From positions 1 through 22,236 of the IMG/VR virus record IMGVR_UViG_3300007540_000129: a stretch of 22,236 bases of DNA. One strand, given 5' to 3'. The notes beneath the pieces are model-generated. The model was not told the DNA's origin. It made no database searches and saw only the letters and a program-made list of their open reading frames with translations. A program made the position numbers and the translations under genes. The DNA is from a virus. Below, piece after piece: positions 2,469-21,248 of the stretch; the stretch's first letter is position 1; each line of letters opens with the position of its first letter.

Positions 2469-4456
2469 TGCCATATATTTTAGACATTGATCCTTCGCAA
2501 TCAGAAATATCGGAAGCTGTTAATTATTTATTGAGTAACTTTTCTCAAGGATTAACTTCAAATCCAAATTCTGGAGAGGTTACAGGACCAGCCGGTAATG
2601 TTCTTGGATATTTGTATAAATATATTGCTGTCAAATATGCTGATAGCCAAGATGGTTCTGTTAATTTTAGTGATGTTCCAACCAATAGACTTTACTATGG
2701 CGTTAGAAATACTAATAGTTTTGTTGAATCAACTAATCCTACTGATTACGTTTGGAATTTAGTTACTGGTGGTTTTGGAACTACTAAATTTTTGTGGTAT
2801 TCGGTAACTGGTGGTCGTCAAATTCAGTTTGCTATTTCTACGTCAATTTATGCTTTGGGTTATGTTTTAGAAAATGGAGCATCTATTGATTTAGATGTTA
2901 TTACATCATCTTTAACTAATGATTCTTTTGCAACAATTTTTAGCCCAGCAACTCTTCAAGTTCCTTATACAACTGTTCCAGTTTTTACTGGAGTTATACC
3001 TGTTCTTTATGGTACTAATGCTTATGGTGCGGTTGATTTTGTAGCCTCTCAAACAGATAGTGATATTGCGTTTATTAACAATACTTGGCGCATTGGTAAT
3101 AGCTCAACTACAGGATATGCTTCTATTGTAAAAACCGGAATTACTATTGCAGATCCTATAGATGGTGGATCTTTTGCAATTTGGCCTATTCCAACTGCAA
3201 TGCCTACAAACAGCGCAAAAATAGAAGTTCCTATTCGCTATAAAGATAATGCTGGAACAATTCGTCAGGCTGCTGTTAGCTCTCTTCAATTTGTATTTAA
3301 TTATGGTGGAAAAAATTCCGTTATTTGTTATGCGTTATATGCCGGTAATCCAACAGTTACTGGTGCTGCAATAGTTACTTCTGGAACAAATCTTCCTTCT
3401 ACAACATCATTTGCGCCTACATCTGCTTCCACTTTTACATATACAGTACAAAATCCCGGATCAGAACAAGCAATGTTCCAATCTGATGGATCTTATGATC
3501 CAGTTTCCAATACAACAACTTGGAATACACCTTATTTATCTAATTTAAAAGTTGGAAAATTATCTGCAATTACAGCAGATTTAGGCACAATTAATGCTGG
3601 TGTAATTAATGGCATTGCTATTAATGGCGGCACTATAAAAATAGGAACTGGTCATACAGTTTCTAACAACGCTTTTGAAATAAGTTCTGCTGGTGTTGTT
3701 TTTGCAGACAATATATTTGGAGGAAATTGTTATTTTGAAAACTTTTTCTATCCAACAATAATTCCTCTAAAGTCAACTACTAGGGCTAATACAGAAGCAA
3801 TTCGTGGATTAGTATCAACTACTTCAGGAATGAGTGGTACAGATTCACATGGTATTCGTGGCGTAAGTGTTGACAATGGAACTGCTGGATTAATTGCAAC
3901 GGCTAATGGATATGATTTTTATGCAGAAGGATCTGGAACCAATTATGGGCCATTTACTGGAACTCACGATTCATTAGTAATTATTGGGTCTACATTTACA
4001 ATAGGTGATATTGTTATTGACCAACAAATTATTGAACGTAACGGCATTTCTTCTACAATTTCACTGGTTGGTGTTTCAACTATTGCAAATCAACCTGCTG
4101 CACTTGGTGTAGTTTGTGCAGTTCCATATTTACTTTCTTCTGCTCAACCGGCTGTTTACATTGACTATTACGACAAAGAAACCAACAAAAATGTAATGAA
4201 ACCCAGTTACTACACAGACATTTCTTTGTATGACTTGATGGCAGTCAATGCGGTTGGTGAGGGTCAAATAAATGTTTGTGGAGAAGGTGGAAACATACAG
4301 GCAGGAGATTTAATCTGTACGTCTTCCGTATTGGGCAAAGGAATGAGACAATCGGACGATCTTGTACATAGTTACACAGTTGCAAAAGCAAGAGAAACTG
4401 TAACTTTTACCGGGTCGGAATTTAAACAAATTGCCTGCATATATTTGTGCGGTTAA
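2468..4456 (+). CDS. Tail fibre with C-terminal autoprocessing/chaperone-type domain
   Basis: The 662-residue protein has three visible parts. Residues about 47-130 hold a beta-rich segment (KYIAVKYADS, PTNRLYYGVRNT). Residues 360-395 hold the fibre-like block LKVGKLSAITADLGTINAG followed by INGGTIKIGTG, as in central regions of lambda J-type and other tail fibres. The C-terminus from about 450 has HGIRGVS, NYGPFTGTHD (492-501), GDIVID, and then INVCGEGGNIQAGDL (601-615) and KGMRQSDD, ending in IACIYLCG. That last part resembles C-terminal domains of many phage fibres related to Peptidase_G2-type intramolecular chaperones that trimerise and may be cleaved off. Receptor binding or fibre anchoring is inferred. 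Start codon overlaps the preceding stop (TAATG). Confidence 0.65.
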   Translation: MPYILDIDPSQSEISEAVNYLLSNFSQGLTSNPNSGEVTGPAGNVLGYLYKYIAVKYADSQDGSVNFSDVPTNRLYYGVRNTNSFVESTNPTDYVWNLVTGGFGTTKFLWYSVTGGRQIQFAISTSIYALGYVLENGASIDLDVITSSLTNDSFATIFSPATLQVPYTTVPVFTGVIPVLYGTNAYGAVDFVASQTDSDIAFINNTWRIGNSSTTGYASIVKTGITIADPIDGGSFAIWPIPTAMPTNSAKIEVPIRYKDNAGTIRQAAVSSLQFVFNYGGKNSVICYALYAGNPTVTGAAIVTSGTNLPSTTSFAPTSASTFTYTVQNPGSEQAMFQSDGSYDPVSNTTTWNTPYLSNLKVGKLSAITADLGTINAGVINGIAINGGTIKIGTGHTVSNNAFEISSAGVVFADNIFGGNCYFENFFYPTIIPLKSTTRANTEAIRGLVSTTSGMSGTDSHGIRGVSVDNGTAGLIATANGYDFYAEGSGTNYGPFTGTHDSLVIIGSTFTIGDIVIDQQIIERNGISSTISLVGVSTIANQPAALGVVCAVPYLLSSAQPAVYIDYYDKETNKNVMKPSYYTDISLYDLMAVNAVGEGQINVCGEGGNIQAGDLICTSSVLGKGMRQSDDLVHSYTVAKARETVTFTGSEFKQIACIYLCG

Positions 4457-9735: not shown

Positions 9736-10125
9736 ATGGCAGACATTACTGGACTTGGAGCCATTTCCGACCTTGCATCTACCGTTATTAATAAAATCTG
9801 GCCTGATAAAAGTGAGGCAGAAAAACAACAGCTTGCAGCAGCAGTAATGGTTGTCCAAGGACAAATGGACATTAACAAAGTAGAAGCAGCCAATCCATCT
9901 GTCTTTGTATCTGGATGGCGTCCGTTTATCGGCTGGGTGTGCGGCGCGGCCTGCGCTTGGAACTGGATTGGTTTACCCATTGGCAAAGCTGTATTGTTGT
10001 TTATGGGTTATTCAATTACTCTATCTCCTGCTGACATATCTGAAATGATGCCTGTTCTTTTGGGAATGTTGGGATTAGGAACATTAAGAACAGTTGAGAA
10101 AATTAAAAACGTAGCTGCTAAATGA
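9736..10125 (+). CDS. Three-TM holin (GTA/3TM holin family)
   Basis: The 129-residue protein has a soluble N-terminus (KSEAEKQQLAAAV) and then the signature SVFVSGWRPFIGWVCGAA (55-72), followed by hydrophobic spans at about 58-80, 83-94 and 104-117 and a basic end. This matches the three-TM phage holin family named for gene-transfer-agent release (PF11351-like). It would form lesions in the inner membrane so that the endolysin reaches the wall. An AAGGA site sits before the ATG. The stop overlaps the endolysin start by four bases (ATGA), consistent with coupled translation of holin and lysin. Confidence 0.85.
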   Translation: MADITGLGAISDLASTVINKIWPDKSEAEKQQLAAAVMVVQGQMDINKVEAANPSVFVSGWRPFIGWVCGAACAWNWIGLPIGKAVLLFMGYSITLSPADISEMMPVLLGMLGLGTLRTVEKIKNVAAK

Positions 10126-10637
10126 AAATTAACTTTGAAAAAGCATTGCAATTAATATTGAAGTCGGAGGGGGGGTATGTCAATCATCCAGAAGACCCCG
10201 GTGGTATTACAAATCTTGGAGTCACCAAAAGAGTATGGGAGGAGTGGGTAGGGCATGAAGTCGCAGAACAGGTCATGCGCGATCTAACGCCATCCATTGT
10301 TGGCCCCATGTACAAAGCCAAATATTGGGAAAAAGTACGTGGTGACGATCTACCTTCAGGGGTTGATTACTGCGTCTTTGATGCTGCTGTCAACAGTGGC
10401 CCCGGCAGAGCCGTTAAATGGCTTCAAGCTTGCGTCAAAGTAGAAGTTGATGGGGTCATAGGCCCAAAGACTTTAGACGCTGTAACAGCCTTCAGTGATA
10501 TTGAGCTAATTTCTGATTACAACAAGCGGCGTTTGTCGTTTTTGCTTGATCTAAGCACATGGGAAACGTTTGGTAAAGGTTGGACAAACAGAGTCTATGC
10601 CGTTGAGAACTCTGCCGCCAAAATGGTTACTGCTTAA
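10122..10637 (+). CDS. Endolysin, glycoside hydrolase 108 family
   Basis: The 171-residue protein shows the GH108 signature: SEGGYVNHPEDPGGITNLG, with the probable catalytic Glu16, then the fold-typical VDYCVFDAAVNSGPGRAVKWLQ (about 85-105), and a C-terminal peptidoglycan-binding-3 type segment (VDGVIGPKTLDAV). It cleaves glycan strands in the wall. No signal peptide or N-terminal membrane anchor is seen, so release depends on the holin. It overlaps the holin gene by ATGA at the start. Its last 11 bases overlap, on the opposite strand, the end of the MazG-like gene (10627-10637), so the two operons converge. No spanin gene is visible nearby. Confidence 0.85.
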   Translation: MKINFEKALQLILKSEGGYVNHPEDPGGITNLGVTKRVWEEWVGHEVAEQVMRDLTPSIVGPMYKAKYWEKVRGDDLPSGVDYCVFDAAVNSGPGRAVKWLQACVKVEVDGVIGPKTLDAVTAFSDIELISDYNKRRLSFLLDLSTWETFGKGWTNRVYAVENSAAKMVTA

Positions 10638-12034: not shown

Positions 12035-12697
12035 TTAACTTTCTGTGGGTTTAATTTGAGCCTTTTTCAAAGCTCCTCGTGTACTGGCCGACATCTGCGA
12101 TGCCAACCAAACTCTTTGATCAGCTTCTAGTGCTGCTGCATTGATCATTTCAAGGGCTTGTACTGCTTTGCCAGCTTGAACAAGCTCTTCAGTAGCATTT
12201 GCCATGTCTAGCAAATAGTCCTTGGTGTCTTGCGGGAGGTCGTCACCAATTCCACCACGGGGGGTGTGTTTCATGTGACCTGTTTCAGCATAAGAGCTAC
12301 TATCTTTTTCATTCTCTTTGGCTGGCTTCTGTGGAATGTCTTCACCAGAATAAATGTACAAGCCCAATCCATGCAATGCTAATGCTTTGGTCATGCAACG
12401 CATGATGGCTGTATTGACTGCAAATGCATCAGGATTAGGAATAGGTTTATTCCGGTAATCCATCACTGGAAGCATACAAGTCATTGGTTTGTTGAACATG
12501 GTTACAGTCACCCAAACCATGCCTGTACCGTTAACGTCCATGTAGCATTTACCGTCAAACAGTTCTACTTTAAAAGTAGCTGCTTCATCTGCTTTTAGAG
12601 CTTCTGCCCATGCCCAAGCCCATGATAAATAGGTAAGGTTGTTCTTCTTTTCTGTATGCTCATTAACATTGAGCGATAGTAAAAAATTTACTGTCAT
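12035..12697 (-). CDS. DUF1071/Sak3-like single-strand annealing protein
   Basis: Start is set at 12697, where AAGGATC lies six bases upstream and the ATG overlaps the previous stop (ATGA). This gives 220 residues. Residues 9-120 match DUF1071/Sak3 proteins: NVNEHTEKKNNLTYLSWAWA, then the YMDVNGTGMVWVTV strand block, NPDAFAVNTAIMRCMTKALA and HGLGLYIYSGEDI. These phage recombinases anneal complementary single strands during recombination and replication, and belong to the Rad52/Sak-type group. Residues 121-220 are a charged helical tail. Partner genes nearby (SpoVG-like protein, RusA on the other strand) fit a recombination module. Family assignment is good. Confidence 0.75.
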   Translation of the reverse strand: MTVNFLLSLNVNEHTEKKNNLTYLSWAWAWAEALKADEAATFKVELFDGKCYMDVNGTGMVWVTVTMFNKPMTCMLPVMDYRNKPIPNPDAFAVNTAIMRCMTKALALHGLGLYIYSGEDIPQKPAKENEKDSSSYAETGHMKHTPRGGIGDDLPQDTKDYLLDMANATEELVQAGKAVQALEMINAAALEADQRVWLASQMSASTRGALKKAQIKPTES

Positions 12698-12894
12698 TTT
12701 TGATCCTTGTGGTTGTTCCATTCGTATTCTTCTTGAGCAATGCGCTGCTGAGTGTCATCATCCAAGTCTTTGTATTGAACAAAGTGATTTTCAGAACAGC
12801 ATGAGCGTTGATCACCGCGAATAGAAAAGCAGTAGCAGCAGTACTCAACATTGGCTTGTTCAGCTTTAAAACCGTCCATAAAGTGGTTCATCAT
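12694..12894 (-). CDS. Small Cys-rich protein, possible zinc-binding
   Basis: A 66-residue protein with five cysteines and a histidine close together (Cys19, Cys20, Cys22, Cys32, Cys33, His37), then an acidic, glutamine-rich C-terminus. The cluster could bind one zinc ion, though the spacing is not a standard finger. AAAGGA precedes the first ATG, and a second Met follows at once. The start overlaps the upstream stop (ATGA) and the stop overlaps the annealing-protein start (ATGA), so it sits inside a coupled series. Function unknown. I do not recognise a family. Confidence 0.6.
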   Translation of the reverse strand: MMNHFMDGFKAEQANVEYCCYCFSIRGDQRSCCSENHFVQYKDLDDDTQQRIAQEEYEWNNHKDQK

Positions 12895-13205: not shown

Positions 13206-13247
13206 ACAATTAAATTCCAATACACCGCGAAACAGCGGCATGGAAGA

Positions 13248-13253
13248 ACTATA
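13248..13253 (-). promoter_or_regulatory. Candidate leftward -10 box (TATAGT)
   Basis: TATAGT on the minus strand lies in the divergent control region between the two early operons, about 43 bases before the preferred start at 13205. The -35 region is not convincing (GAAAAT at 17-bp spacing). It is the best promoter-like hexamer for the leftward operon seen by eye. No good matching -10 is found for the rightward genes. Confidence 0.3.
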
Positions 13254-13274
13254 GACGATCTTTCACCGAAATTT

Positions 13275-13295
13275 TCTAGGTGTTTTCCCTAATGG
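13275..13295 (+). promoter_or_regulatory. 21-bp element, copy A: SD, possible hairpin and start codon
   Basis: This copy begins TCTAGGTG and ends CCCTAATGG. It matches copy B at 16579-16599 at 18 of 21 bases. Both contain a Shine-Dalgarno-like stretch (AGGTG here, AAGGG in copy B), then a T-rich and C-rich spacer and ATG. The C-run can pair back on the G-run, which would hide the ribosome binding site. Here it starts a 12-codon leader peptide. The regulatory role is inference. Confidence 0.5.
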
Positions 13296-13330
13296 TTTTT
13301 TTGTTTTCGACTGTTAGTCTTATGGCATGA
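13292..13330 (+). CDS. Putative 12-residue hydrophobic leader peptide
   Basis: ATG at 13292 in copy A of the 21-bp element opens a short ORF encoding MVFLFSTVSLMA. Its TGA (13328-13330) overlaps the ATG of the next gene at 13327 by four bases (ATGA). The next gene has no Shine-Dalgarno of its own, so it may depend on translation of this leader. AGGTG lies about nine bases before the leader ATG. A random short ORF is possible. The overlap and the repeated element raise the chance that it is used. Confidence 0.4.
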   Translation: MVFLFSTVSLMA

Positions 13331-13521
13331 ACAACGAACTTATTGAACAAGAATTGGCCTACTTGCTTACCGTACACGCTACGGAAATGCTTGAAGGTAT
13401 GACGCATCCTGATGATCTAGATGCTGCTGTATGCGCTGTGCTGGCTCGTGCAATGGAAGTTGCCAGCAACAAAAAACTTAGACCTATTGATGAAATCTTC
13501 CAAGCAACCAAGCCCCTTTGA
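13327..13521 (+). CDS. Small helical early protein, unknown
   Basis: A 64-residue acidic, helical protein, first full gene of the rightward operon. Two helices are likely (about 2-22 and 28-46, rich in Leu, Ala and Glu). No known motif. It lacks its own ribosome binding site and starts in ATGA overlap with the 12-residue leader ORF, so translation may be coupled. Function unknown. Confidence 0.55.
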   Translation: MNNELIEQELAYLLTVHATEMLEGMTHPDDLDAAVCAVLARAMEVASNKKLRPIDEIFQATKPL

Positions 13522-13567
13522 CATCAAGCAACCTTCTGTGTTGTTCAGCAAGCATGAGTAAGTTACT

Positions 13568-13660
13568 ATGAACAAATATGCAGTCGCTAAGAAGGACTTG
13601 AAGCCATCGGTTTTTTCGATGTACCAAAAAGCAAAACGCTACAACCCAACTGAGGAATGA
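13568..13660 (+). CDS. Very small basic protein, 30 residues
   Basis: ATG at 13568 opens a 30-residue ORF (MNKYAVAKKDLKPSVFSMYQ then KAKRYNPTEE). Lysine-rich and probably helical. The upstream GAGTAAG is only a weak ribosome site. Its composition looks coding and it fills the gap between two likely genes, with its stop two bases before the next ATG. It might be chance. No function can be given. Confidence 0.4.
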   Translation: MNKYAVAKKDLKPSVFSMYQKAKRYNPTEE

Positions 13661-13662
13661 CA

Positions 13663-13833
13663 ATGGACTTTTCTACACTTTTTAACCTGTTTACCAAGTC
13701 TGGTATGCAGCAAGATCCTGAGACTCACCAGTTTACAGGCGGCATCTCTGAGATGGCTCGTTTAGCTCACAACATTGCAGAGCAACGTGAAGATGACGCA
13801 TTTTTTAATCGCAACCGTAATGAGGACTTCTGA
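13663..13833 (+). CDS. Small hypothetical early protein, 56 residues
   Basis: GAGGA lies about eight bases before this ATG. The 56-residue product (MDFSTLFNLFTKSGMQ at the start, ending NRNRNEDF) is mixed polar and helical. Its TGA overlaps the next ATG as TGATG at 13831-13835, which argues that both are expressed together. I do not recognise a family. Confidence 0.55.
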   Translation: MDFSTLFNLFTKSGMQQDPETHQFTGGISEMARLAHNIAEQREDDAFFNRNRNEDF

Positions 13834-14027
13834 TGAGCAAAGGTAGCGCCCCTCGTCCTATTGCTGATCGTCAGTCGTTTGTTGAACGATGGGATGCAAT
13901 CTTTAAAGAAAAGTGTCCTGAATGCCAGTCACCGAATTGGTGGCTCAAGGAAGGTGCTAGTGCTTGCGGCATGGAAGCACATTGCAAGGTTTGTGACTCT
14001 TGCGGTCACCAGTGGGATATAGGCTAG
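13833..14027 (+). CDS. Phage KGSxxRP-type protein fused to a zinc ribbon
   Basis: The 64-residue protein has an N-terminal MSKGSAPRPI and FVERWDAIF (residues 16-24), a short conserved motif I know from many small phage proteins ending with WDxIF. It continues with CPEC (28-31) and CKVCDSC (51-57), with Trp at 36, 37 and 61, which form a likely zinc ribbon. Metal binding would explain the cysteines. A nucleic-acid role is plausible but unproven. It overlaps the previous stop (TGATG) and is followed by a short non-coding stretch and the HNH gene. Confidence 0.65.
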   Translation: MSKGSAPRPIADRQSFVERWDAIFKEKCPECQSPNWWLKEGASACGMEAHCKVCDSCGHQWDIG

Positions 14028-14068
14028 AATTTATGAAACCCGGCTAGATCTGAAGTCATGAGCAGATC

Positions 14069-14079
14069 GAAAAGTGAAC
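14069..14079 (+). repeat. 11-bp direct repeat, left copy (GAAAAGTGAAC)
   Basis: GAAAAGTGAAC here is identical to 14470-14480. The two copies are 401 bases apart and flank the HNH gene. The right copy contains the GTG start of the replication gene. The left copy contains the same GTGAAC at 14074. See the insertion note for the meaning. Confidence 0.8.
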
Positions 14080-14127
14080 TCTGCACCTGCCGTTGTTTCT
14101 TTCATCAGAGTGTACAGAAAGAAAATT

Positions 14128-14478
14128 ATGACTTTACTTGTCAGTAAAAAACGCATTTCTATATTTGAGCGTGATAAATATTTATGCCAATATTGTGGAA
14201 AGCTTTTAACTTTAGAGCAATGTTCTATTGATCACAAAATAGCAACCTCTAGAAAAGGTACTAATGGGTCTTTAAATCTTGTAACTTGTTGCAGTTCATG
14301 TAATTCAAGTAAGGGGCCAAGATCAATAGAAGCATTCAGGCTGACTTGTAGAGTTAAAAAGTCTCCTTATGCGTCTGTAGTTCAAGGTCATACAGTTAAA
14401 AAATTAATAAATTTAGGAATTGAATTTTCGTTATTGGAAGAACATCTTTTCTTTTTTGAACAAAGAGAAGAAAAGTGA
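14128..14478 (+). CDS. HNH endonuclease
   Basis: Start at 14128 is chosen for the AGAAAG site before it. The GTG at 14074 lies in the left direct repeat and has no good site. The 116-residue protein has FERDKYLCQYCGK (13-25), the catalytic-type ASP-His pair IDH (34-36), Asn50 in NLVTCCSSCNSSKG (50-63) and a second CxxC pair, giving the HNH fold with a Zn ion held by Cys20, Cys23, Cys55 and Cys58. Free-standing HNH genes in phages are often homing endonucleases. The gene is clearly AT-richer than its neighbours, which suggests recent arrival. Its TGA overlaps the GTG start of the replication gene. Confidence 0.8.
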   Translation: MTLLVSKKRISIFERDKYLCQYCGKLLTLEQCSIDHKIATSRKGTNGSLNLVTCCSSCNSSKGPRSIEAFRLTCRVKKSPYASVVQGHTVKKLINLGIEFSLLEEHLFFFEQREEK

Positions 14479-14480
14479 AC
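14470..14480 (+). repeat. 11-bp direct repeat, right copy (GAAAAGTGAAC)
   Basis: Second copy of GAAAAGTGAAC, identical to 14069-14079. It contains both the HNH stop (TGA, 14476-14478) and the GTG start of the replication gene (14475-14477). An 11-base identity beginning exactly at a gene start is unlikely by chance in this short distance. Confidence 0.8.
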
Positions 14481-15125
14481 CATTCATTTGACGTAAATAT
14501 TGCCGTTCGTCACGGTATTCAAGCCGCTGTTCTCATTGAAAACTTGCGTTTTTGGTTGCTTAAAAACATAGCAAACAAGAAGAACTTTCATGAGGGTCAC
14601 TACTGGACATACAACTCTGTTAAAGCATTTGCAGAACTGTTTCCGTATATGTCTGAAGACTCTATTCAGCGAGTTTTAAAGAAGCTTGAAGTTGAAGGAA
14701 TTTTGTTTACAGGAAGCTTTAATCACAACTCACATGATCGAACCAAATGGTATCGTTTAAGTGAGGATTTCCTTTCCGCAGAATCTTTGATTGCATTCCG
14801 CAAAAACGCGGAATCAATAAGTACAGATATAAAACCAAATAAAAACACTATCTCCAGCGGAAATGCTGGATTATTTGAGAAATTCTGGGATGCCTATCCT
14901 CGCAAGATCAATAAAGGCGGTACTCGTACAGTCTTTGCCAAGATCAAACCTTCTGAAGAAACGCTTCAAAAGATGATTTCTGCCATTGACAAACAAAAAA
15001 GATCCGATCAATGGAAAGACCCCAAATACATTCCACATCCTTCGTCTTGGCTTAACGGTGAGCGTTGGGAAGATGAGGACTCTACGGGTAAACCCTCTTT
15101 TAATCCGCTTGCAGGAGCTATCTAA
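14475..15125 (+). CDS. Winged-helix phage replication protein
   Basis: The 216-residue protein starts with GTG inside the HNH stop. Residues 1-100 contain a probable winged-helix domain (HYWTYNSVKAFAELFPYMSE, then IQRVLKKLEVEGIL). After a polar linker, residues 133-205 read FEKFWDAYPRKINKGGTR, then YIPHPSSWLNGERWED, a C-terminal pattern of phage replication initiators/helicase loaders. It would bind origin DNA and load the helicase. The DnaB-like ATPase follows two genes on. Its stop overlaps the next start as TAATG. Replication role rests on this pattern and context. Confidence 0.65.
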   Translation: MNHSFDVNIAVRHGIQAAVLIENLRFWLLKNIANKKNFHEGHYWTYNSVKAFAELFPYMSEDSIQRVLKKLEVEGILFTGSFNHNSHDRTKWYRLSEDFLSAESLIAFRKNAESISTDIKPNKNTISSGNAGLFEKFWDAYPRKINKGGTRTVFAKIKPSEETLQKMISAIDKQKRSDQWKDPKYIPHPSSWLNGERWEDEDSTGKPSFNPLAGAI

Positions 15126-15460
15126 TGAAGGGTCAGGACGAGATCATCCGAATGAGGATGAGCGGTCTGAAGCCTGAGTGGGTTCACATCTATGACTTTC
15201 CCTATCCAACAGATTGGGCTGAACAAGGAATGATCCCATCGATATGCACTGACAACGATCTGATTAAAACGCTCGACATGAGGTTTTTGGTCAATTTGAA
15301 GGTCTGTGTATCCTCATGCTCCGAAAAACGCGCTATGGCCCTTTTTGAGGCTTGTAAACAGGCAAAGGTTGCACTTGTTGCCGCAGCTTATGTACAAACT
15401 GATAAACCGACATGGAAACAAGATGGATGGACAGGAATCTACAATGCAACTGCTAACTGA
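15125..15460 (+). CDS. Conserved phage hypothetical next to helicase
   Basis: The 111-residue protein (MKGQDEIIRMRMSGLKPEWVH at the start) has an alternating strand-helix pattern with a mid stretch (LDMRFLVNLKVCVSSCSEKRA, 50-70) and a Trp-rich end. A similar small protein commonly precedes the ATPase in related phages, as I recall. Its start overlaps the previous stop (TAATG) and its 3' end overlaps the ATPase start by 17 bp. No enzymatic motif is visible. Confidence 0.6.
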   Translation: MKGQDEIIRMRMSGLKPEWVHIYDFPYPTDWAEQGMIPSICTDNDLIKTLDMRFLVNLKVCVSSCSEKRAMALFEACKQAKVALVAAAYVQTDKPTWKQDGWTGIYNATAN

Positions 15461-16424
15461 TGAAATTGACTTTCGGATTTACATGAAGGAAACAGATGCC
15501 CAGACTAAGGTCAAACGGGCATCTGACTACATCGAAGCAATCAAGGAGCGTTTGAGAGGACGTAAAACTGAGATTGGGACAATGCTTCCTTGGCCTAAAA
15601 CCCATGAAAACTTTGAGTTTCGTAAGGGTGAAGTCACTCTATGGTCTGGTCAGAATGGTCATGGGAAGTCACTGATGACAACTCAGATTGCCTTGTCTCT
15701 CATTGGACAGGGTCAAAAGGTCTGCATTGCATCCTTTGAAATGAAGCCTGCAACCACTATGCAACGTGCTGCTCGTATGTGGGTTGGATTGAATCCTTTT
15801 TGCCCTGAATTTCAAGAGGAAAAAGGTCTGGCAATGCTAGACGATCTGTATGAGCAATTTGGCGATTGGACTGATGATTTTTTGTGGCTGTATGACCAGA
15901 TGGGAACGGCAAATAGTGAAACCATCATTGGTATGGTTCGCTACTGTGCCAAGGTCTTGAACATTGATCACATTTTCATTGACAACCTCGCCAAATGCGT
16001 CAAGGGTGAGGATGACTATAACGGTCAGAAGCTTTTTGTTGATGAACTGACGGCTGTTGCCCGTGATTACAACATCCACATTCATTTGGTTCACCACCTG
16101 AAGAAGCCAGCCAATGAGTACGCCATTCCTGATAAACATGACAACAAGGGTTCAGGATCGATTACCGACCAAGTAGACAACGTTATGTTGGTTTTTCGCA
16201 ACAAGACAAAAGAAGATGATGTGAAAGCAAACGGATCTTTTGGAAAGAACAATGCTGAACCAGATCACTATTTGTTGTGCCGTAAGCAGAGGAACTATGA
16301 AGGCTCTGGTGAGGGTGAACCAACGATCAAGCTGTGGTTTCATCGTGATGCCCAACAGTACATTGCAGAGGCTGGTGATATGCCTCAGTGGTTCCCGGCA
16401 TGGCCTCACGTGGCTACACCATGA
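15444..16424 (+). CDS. DnaB-like RecA-fold helicase/ATPase
   Basis: Start at 15444 is chosen because AGGA precedes this ATG by nine bases. The open frame upstream is the overlap with the preceding gene. The 326-residue protein has a Walker A motif GQNGHGKS (69-76), a Walker B-like HIFIDNL (176-182), the histidine block HIHLVHHLKKP (212-222) and a GSGSITDQVDNV motif (236-247), as in DnaB/Twinkle C-terminal helicase domains. No primase domain is present. It would be the replicative helicase. The stop overlaps the next ATG as ATGA. Confidence 0.8.
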   Translation: MQLLTDEIDFRIYMKETDAQTKVKRASDYIEAIKERLRGRKTEIGTMLPWPKTHENFEFRKGEVTLWSGQNGHGKSLMTTQIALSLIGQGQKVCIASFEMKPATTMQRAARMWVGLNPFCPEFQEEKGLAMLDDLYEQFGDWTDDFLWLYDQMGTANSETIIGMVRYCAKVLNIDHIFIDNLAKCVKGEDDYNGQKLFVDELTAVARDYNIHIHLVHHLKKPANEYAIPDKHDNKGSGSITDQVDNVMLVFRNKTKEDDVKANGSFGKNNAEPDHYLLCRKQRNYEGSGEGEPTIKLWFHRDAQQYIAEAGDMPQWFPAWPHVATP

Positions 16425-16609
16425 CCCGGTCTTATGCGCTCATTCAGCTACTGAAACACGGTGGTCTGACACGGTCTGAGATCAGGGACATCACGGGATG
16501 GCCTAGCAACACAGTCAACAGCGTCATGCTGTCTTTACGTCAAACAAACCAAATTTTGCTTTCAGAAAGAATTTGGAATCTAAGGGTTTCCCCTAATGGC
16601 ATATCATAA
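16421..16609 (+). CDS. Small helix-turn-helix regulator
   Basis: I take ATG 16421, which overlaps the helicase stop (ATGA), rather than a Met 11 codons upstream within that gene. The 62-residue protein contains a winged-helix/HTH unit, LKHGGLTRSEIRDITGWPSN followed by TVNSVMLSLRQ (about 10-41), typical of small DNA-binding regulators. It ends on top of copy B of the 21-bp element and the start of the next gene (14-bp overlap). Autoregulation is plausible but is inference. Confidence 0.6.
   Translation: MTRSYALIQLLKHGGLTRSEIRDITGWPSNTVNSVMLSLRQTNQILLSERIWNLRVSPNGIS
16579..16599 (+). promoter_or_regulatory. 21-bp element, copy B: SD, hairpin and start codon
   Basis: Begins TCTAAGGG and ends CCCTAATGG, matching copy A at 13275-13295 at 18 of 21 positions. 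The AAGGG Shine-Dalgarno and the CCCCT run can form a four-bp G/C stem with a short loop immediately before the ATG at 16596. This sits inside the end of the HTH gene. A translation control role, or a binding site for a phage regulator, is inferred. Confidence 0.5.
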
Positions 16610-19118: not shown

Positions 19119-19542
19119 TGTTTCTTTCATTATTGAAGGTGATCCAGTAGCCAAGGGTCGCCCTAAGTTTGCTAGACGCGGAAAGTTTGTCAGTGTCTAC
19201 ACCCCTAAAAAGACAAAGACTTATGAAGACAAGGTTGCAGAGGTTGCAAGAATCGCTATGGGTGATCAGGAGCCACTAGAAACGCCTGTAACGGTGTCAA
19301 TCATGATTTACTTCCCTGTACCAGCATCCTACTCAAAGAAACGCCGTGAAGCCTGTTTAAACCAAACTGAAATGCACCTGAAACGTCCAGACATGGACAA
19401 TGTTTACAAAGCAATAACTGATGCGATGAATGGTATTGTTTATCAAGATGACTGTCAGATTGTTTCCATGCACGTAGATAAGGTTTACGCCGATGTTGGG
19501 TCTGTAAGTGTCTATGTTTATGAAAAATTAGCATTAAAATAA
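19111..19542 (+). CDS. rusA: RusA-type Holliday junction resolvase
   Basis: I start at ATG 19111. The longer frame upstream is in the preceding gene. The 143-residue protein has GDPVAKGRPKFARRGKFV (10-27), then YTPKKTKTYED (30-40), and the acidic catalytic block PDMDNVYKAITDAMNG (93-108) with YQDDCQIV (111-118), so Asp94, Asp96 and Asp113 or 114 take the metal-binding places seen in E. coli RusA (Asp70, Asp72, Asp91). RusA cuts four-way junctions with Mg2+ during replication and recombination. Together with the annealing protein on the other strand it would form the recombination set. Confidence 0.85.
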   Translation: MFDVSFIIEGDPVAKGRPKFARRGKFVSVYTPKKTKTYEDKVAEVARIAMGDQEPLETPVTVSIMIYFPVPASYSKKRREACLNQTEMHLKRPDMDNVYKAITDAMNGIVYQDDCQIVSMHVDKVYADVGSVSVYVYEKLALK

Positions 19543-20951: not shown

Positions 20952-21248
20952 ATGTCTAAAATTACCCAATCTGCACGTAATGAGAACTGCACTATCAATC
21001 TGATAGGAGTCTGTAGTTTCAATCCTGATACTGTTGTGTGGGCGCATAGTAATAAAGGCATTCATGGCAAAGGTTTGGGTTTAAAGGCCAAGGATGAGAA
21101 TGGAGCGTATGCCTGTTATCAGTGTCACATGACCTATGACAGACAATTAAAAAGACCTAAAAACCTATCGTTGGAAGATGTAGAAGCAGCATTTACAATA
21201 GCCATGCTGAAATCACAACAGATACTGAAAGACAAAGGATTGATATGA
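20952..21248 (+). CDS. YbcO-like / DUF1364 nuclease-fold protein
   Basis: The 98-residue protein starts MSKITQSARNENCTINLIGV and has CSFNPDTVVWAHSNKG (21-36), then GAYACYQCHMTYDRQ (51-65). This matches the DUF1364/YbcO family of small phage proteins with an HNH-like, zinc-binding core (His32, Cys55, Cys58, His59, Asp63). The family is proposed to cut DNA, but activity is not certain. It follows the structured non-coding region and its stop overlaps the next ATG (ATGA). The family call is good. Confidence 0.8.
   Translation: MSKITQSARNENCTINLIGVCSFNPDTVVWAHSNKGIHGKGLGLKAKDENGAYACYQCHMTYDRQLKRPKNLSLEDVEAAFTIAMLKSQQILKDKGLI

Follow-up and report, generated by a model that had tools for sequence, protein, structure and literature searches.

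The window analysed here, the whole 22,236-nt stretch of the IMG/VR virus record IMGVR_UViG_3300007540_000129 (positions 1-22,236), contains a replication operon that, in our preferred reading (probability roughly 0.7), is headed by a folded leader RNA, with a small HNH endonuclease gene in the first-gene slot behind the leader and the replication gene second. In this same reading the leader would control translation of whichever gene comes first, and the right-hand copy of an 11-nt repeat that brackets most of the HNH gene would be a product of chance. The mRNA of the operon would start with a compact fold made of three helices (P1, P2 and P3) and a pseudoknot, and the constant GAAAAGUG linker of this fold is what was noticed as the left copy of the repeat. 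In relatives some 36 nt separate the leader core from the start of the replication gene; here the AT-rich HNH gene holds that position at the same spacing, making use of the leader's own start region, and the replication gene follows through a 4-nt overlap, presumably by translational coupling. A conserved, strongly covarying RNA, which marks the start of phage replication operons and of diverse homing endonuclease genes, thus replaces an account in terms of a transposition scar.

The leader RNA and its conservation

The leader lies on the + strand at approximately 14035..14111, and its identification comes from a match to the Rfam family RF02996 (int-alpA), from a match to a model of our own and from covariation. 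P1 is formed by 14035-14039 with 14095-14099 and by 14041-14044 with 14089-14092, P2 by 14047-14052 with 14063-14068, and P3 by 14074-14076 with 14084-14086. The pseudoknot is predicted between the P3 loop (ACUCUG, 14078-14083) and CAGAGU at 14106-14111, upstream of the start codon. Two motif-pattern scans yielded 35 and 116 viral stretches, and the loci provided 96 distinct leaders, nearly all of them from uncultured viruses; 48 class I leaders make up alignment A2 and 23 class II leaders alignment A3. DNA matches in isolated phages were found neither for window positions 13300-16500 nor for the window leader. The sole contig that a scan of bacterial genomes with the strict leader pattern returned (L124) was rejected, as it lacks the promoter and RNA features and its genome holds no RF02996 match.

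In the class I alignment, P1, P2 and P3 are paired in 99.2% of cells, as against 78.4% after shuffling and at most 52.5% when the alignment is slid, and changes on both sides occur in all six of the six P2 pairs. The class II alignment gives 88.8% against 70.7% in shuffles, with P1 covarying outward. The inner pairs of P3 are invariant, and only its outer pair changes on both sides, in class II. For the pseudoknot, the 41 distinct loops form a helix with a mean length of 5.93 nt, compared with 4.41 nt for permuted tails (maximum 4.85 in 500 permutations). On this comparative evidence, covariation supports P1, P2 and the pseudoknot. Folding of the window leader as a single sequence gave no excess stability (z 0.40). 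Because most of the loci were collected by exact motif patterns, which inflates invariance, the constancy of GGCTA, GAAAAGTG and CCTGCC is partly a matter of selection; this bias does not extend in the same manner to the pair counts at variable positions or to the test with model R2, which was built from class II leaders alone with the window excluded. This model finds the window leader with 40.6 bits (E 1.2e-7), and it is for this reason that class I and class II are taken as one family.

A -10-like hexamer, TAGAAT, stands on the + strand at 14025..14030, 17 nt upstream of the GGCTA motif. Most of 82 leaders have such a hexamer 17-19 nt ahead of GGCTA, and in 59 of the 82 it has at most one mismatch to TATAAT, as against 31% in shuffles. 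Its position suggests that the RNA begins at the transcription start. The P2 loops of class I (14053-14062 in the window) fall into a few recurring forms that are freely combined with different P2 stems, and several of these forms have palindromic cores (UCAUGA, GUAGCUAC, UAAUUA); such loops could possibly serve as a receptor or as a dimer contact.

The first-gene slot and the arrival of the HNH gene

The HNH gene (116 aa, 14128..14478, +) matches the Pfam HNH domain (PF01844, 6e-10), HNH_5 and the HNH endonuclease family PHROG 2118 (E 4e-25). Its nuclease motif, HNH with Cys pairs, is intact, with C20, C23, D35, H36, N50, C55, C58, N59 and K62 invariant across six relatives, and we infer from the sequence that the protein may act in homing. 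NCBIfam matches to IscB and Cas9d fall far below cut-off and reflect the shared HNH domain only, so that neither identity was retained; a search of IMG/VR for close relatives of the HNH gene gave a single weak match. The AT-richness attributed to the gene by a reading of the sequence alone (the sequence-only reading) is borne out. Its GC content is 31.3%, while the 351 nt upstream have 46.2%, the replication gene 39.7% and the window as a whole 41.3%, and no more than 0.9% of 351-nt windows reach so high an AT content.

Among 92 leaders the first start codon follows CCTGCC at a narrowly set distance, with a median of 36 nt and an interquartile range of 35-37; in the window this distance is 36 nt, measured to the ATG of the HNH gene. 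The HNH gene is therefore the first gene behind the leader and the replication gene the second. The latter (216 aa, 14475..15125, +) has a GTG start that overlaps the HNH stop by 4 nt (GTGA) and encodes a replication initiation protein (PHROG 11233 and 270) with 33% identity to the replication protein of BcepMigl over 97% of the query. Other recognisable features of the window are a Sak-type annealing protein (12035-12721, -), a glycosyl hydrolase 108 endolysin (10122-10637, +), a RusA resolvase (19120-19542, +) and a second small nuclease gene, the putative nuclease YbcO (20952-21248, +). Between 19600 and 20650 the GC skew climbs sharply to about +0.3 over 1 kb.

As would be expected of a free-standing homing endonuclease gene, the HNH gene is either present or absent at this one site: in six relatives (L001, L002, L004, L006, L008 and L194) the leader is followed by no HNH gene. 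The proposal that the gene was inserted at the start of the replication gene thus holds in so far as it is extra relative to these genomes, lies between leader and replication gene and leaves the downstream gene intact; the repeat as the mark of that event does not hold. No relative is close enough in DNA to fix the right boundary of the gain exactly. Such a site had been thought an unusual target, a view that does not fit the recurrence of HNH genes directly before a replication initiator in unrelated phages. In Pseudomonas phage AF, Burkholderia phage BcepMigl and Vibrio phage 1.247.A a small HNH gene likewise lies immediately before the initiator gene, with its stop overlapping the replication start, and their HNH domains are 40-44% identical to that of the window over 55-73 residues (in phage AF the HNH protein is 41% and the replication protein 32% identical). 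Unlike the window, these three phages yielded no leader RNA of this type and lack the 11-bp repeat. L182 and L197 have the order leader, HNH gene, replication gene as well, and their HNH protein is a different one. These pairs in several phages mark the site as a recurrent one for HNH genes.

The same pairs can be read as a sign that the HNH gene arrived together with the N-terminal domain of the replication protein in a single cassette exchange, with recombination taking place between two conserved flanks, the leader and the C-terminal domain of the replication gene. Such an exchange concerns the route of arrival only and is compatible with the role given to the leader; we regard it as possible, while leaning against it. 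The alignment with L008 agrees with it, as homology between this genome and the window extends over window positions 13216-14131, ending at the leader's ATG, and resumes at 14874, in the C-terminal domain; what lies between is an N-terminal domain that is unrelated, without an HNH gene. Against a single block stand four relatives (L001, L002, L004 and L006) with the same type of N-terminal domain directly after the leader and no HNH gene, and the base composition, the HNH gene being more AT-rich than the N-terminal part of the replication gene (31.3% as against 37.9% GC). The stretch 14874-16420, which comprises the C-terminal domain and the downstream helicase genes, shows 69-73% DNA identity with L002 and L008, and the exchange of the N-terminal domain beside this conserved stretch points to modular replication genes.

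Distribution and probable role of the leader

When the first genes behind 92 leaders were clustered by single linkage, on which the cluster sizes hinge, 68 fell into a single linked cluster of replication proteins, which includes DUF1376, HTH_36 and Phage_rep_O, and at least 18, the window included, into two endonuclease clusters. The endonucleases are of several types, namely HNH_3 with AP2, GIY-YIG with NUMOD3, PHROG 374 HNH and endonuclease VII. A 124-kb contig (IMGVR_UViG_3300037487_001184) holds three leaders (L159, L167 and L169), which precede endonuclease-cluster members, one of them a short ORF; L143 has two leaders, and L113 has, besides its replication leader, a class II leader on the opposite strand (2921-3014, -), found by the model only, before an HNH endonuclease gene. 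In MW202520, a published genome of an uncultured phage, the RNA precedes a gene annotated as endonuclease. Where a phage carries several leaders of this type, mostly ahead of homing endonuclease genes, these have the appearance of mobile RNA-endonuclease modules.

We tentatively propose, at somewhat less than even odds, that int-alpA-type RNA is a portable promoter-proximal leader common to the replication operons and the homing endonucleases of environmental phages, and that the endonucleases either travel with their own copy or, as in the window, take the first-gene slot of a replication leader. With the leader in common, replication genes and selfish endonucleases may be governed by a single regulatory device. 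If this is true, the int-alpA family would gain a concrete genomic context.

Control in cis of first-gene translation appears the most likely role of the leader, and we favour it because of the fixed spacing across unrelated genes, the nearness of a pseudoknot strand to the start and the precedent of phage T4. From the end of the pseudoknot's 3' strand, next to the Shine-Dalgarno region, the median distance to the start codon is 16 nt, a value that depends in some leaders on which of two possible strands is chosen. In many leaders the Shine-Dalgarno sequence lies beside the pseudoknot and not inside it, so that occlusion of the ribosome site by the pseudoknot is only a possibility. Transcription might be the target instead, with the leader serving at the head of the early transcript as an attenuator or a put-like antiterminator. 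This would suit an RNA that seems to begin at the transcription start, with a promoter at a fixed position, and the U-rich stretch that follows P1 in class I; we hold it to be unlikely, since a spacing that stays fixed at 35-37 nt when the first genes are unrelated suggests an action on the start codon. Still less probable is that the RNA works as a free small RNA and stands before these genes by accident: Rfam does class int-alpA as Gene; sRNA, but in nearly all loci the RNA lies on the same strand as the first gene and at a fixed distance from its start codon.

The 11-nt repeat and comparison with known systems

The sequence-only reading had rightly noted that GAAAAGTGAAC occurs exactly at 14069-14079 and again at 14470-14480, and that the right copy covers both the HNH stop (TGA, 14476-14478) and the GTG start of the replication gene (14475-14477); the 11-mer occurs nowhere else in the window, even at one mismatch. 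The window is rich in exact direct repeats of 11 nt or more spaced within 500 nt (14, where Markov shuffles give 3.7). For any one start codon, the 11-mer lying over it would recur in the 500 nt upstream with a probability of about 0.005, and over some 25 genes the chance of such a match at some start codon is about 10%. The repeat is therefore notable, and taken alone it is not strong evidence.

The left copy (14069..14079, +) consists of the invariant linker and the 5' strand of P3, followed by AAC, which enters the pseudoknot strand. As GAAAAGTG is invariant in both leader alignments (whose loci were chosen by patterns containing the motif), this copy is part of the leader. The exact 11-mer is present in 38 viral leaders, mostly without an HNH gene, and among these 38 the window is the only one with a second copy within 700 nt. 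The right copy (14470..14480, +) is made up of the 3' end of the HNH gene (GAAAAG) and the start of the replication gene (GTGAAC, Met-Asn). Within it, TGAACCATTC is native replication-gene sequence, found also in BcepMigl, a phage with an HNH gene at the same place, which reads ATGAACCATTC at this point with no GAAAAG ahead. In L136, GAAAAG occurs shortly before the start codon, within the region of the ribosome site. We infer that the right copy probably arose by chance, where the 3' end of the HNH gene meets a conserved replication start.

Replication-protein relatives, taken from IMG/VR, show what the site looks like when the HNH gene is absent. Five of them (L001, L002, L004, L005 and L006) and the more divergent L003 have the leader in common with the window, in the form GAAACCCGGCTAG...GAAAAGTG...CACCTGCCG...GTTTC followed by the ATG of the replication gene. 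In all the HNH-less genomes L001-L006, L008 and L194, GAAAAGTG is present (as a variant in L003) and the leader runs on for some 50-60 nt to this ATG; the whole leader is kept, and the replication gene starts 33-42 nt after it. The leader most similar around the left copy, that of L194 (GAAAAGTGAACTCTGCACCTGCCGTTG), likewise continues through the pseudoknot strand to the ATG. Since these relatives keep the entire leader before the replication gene, the predicted junction, a single GAAAAGTGAAC joined directly to that gene, is absent from every one of the HNH-less relatives examined. The sequence-only reading had said beforehand that relatives without this junction, or HNH carriers without the repeat at the same site, would speak against an insertion marked by the repeat, and both were found, the second copy being absent from BcepMigl, Vibrio phage 1.247.A, Pseudomonas phage AF and L182/L197. 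Nor would deletion of one copy with the intervening unit be harmless, as had been supposed, for the ribosome site would be lost, and with it the 3' half of an RNA that is structured and conserved. A target-site duplication or recombination scar left at the replication start by the HNH gene is thus highly improbable, for although the repeat is exact, with its right copy over the start codon and so near in only about 0.5% of shuffles, its left copy is integral to an RNA that HNH-less relatives also possess, the empty site that such a scar predicts is seen nowhere, and the HNH-replication junctions of other phages lack the repeat.

With the repeat assigned to the leader, the nearest known RNA is int-alpA. 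Positions 14037-14110 of the window align end to end with RF02996 (positions 1-71) with a score of 25.5 bits (E 0.0076), where the curated cut-off is 35.8 bits; class II leaders exceed this cut-off ahead of endonuclease genes in L143 (50.4 and 43.8 bits), L140 (45.5), L151 (41.2), L159 (41.0) and L198 (39.7), and likewise in L154 (38.9), L193 (38.8), L223 (38.5) and L142 (38.2). The two RNAs agree in architecture, with P1 enclosing P2, the GAAAAG linker, P3 and CCUG, while the window leader differs in its longer P2 and in the added pseudoknot to the start-codon region. By these sequence comparisons the window leader is a divergent relative of int-alpA RNA. The contexts also differ: the leader stands before replication or homing endonuclease genes, and int-alpA, judging by the family name, between int and alpA; the genes scanned on either side of the window leader are neither integrase nor alpA. 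No int-alpA match was found in the int/alpA region of CP4-57 in E. coli K-12 or in a DNA search of E. coli genomes, and the literature on int-alpA gave incidental mention only. To our knowledge, the family is catalogued with no known role.

A close parallel is found in phage T4, where RNA structures control the translation of homing endonucleases (I-TevI, segB, mobE and seg43(25); PMC2988022). As with the leader described here, the structured RNA lies just upstream of the ribosome site of the endonuclease gene, and in seg43(25), too, a stable hairpin leaves the ribosome site uncovered (PMC2988022). The T4-type structures are individual hairpins, whereas here a single conserved, pseudoknotted family is common to several types of endonuclease and to replication genes.
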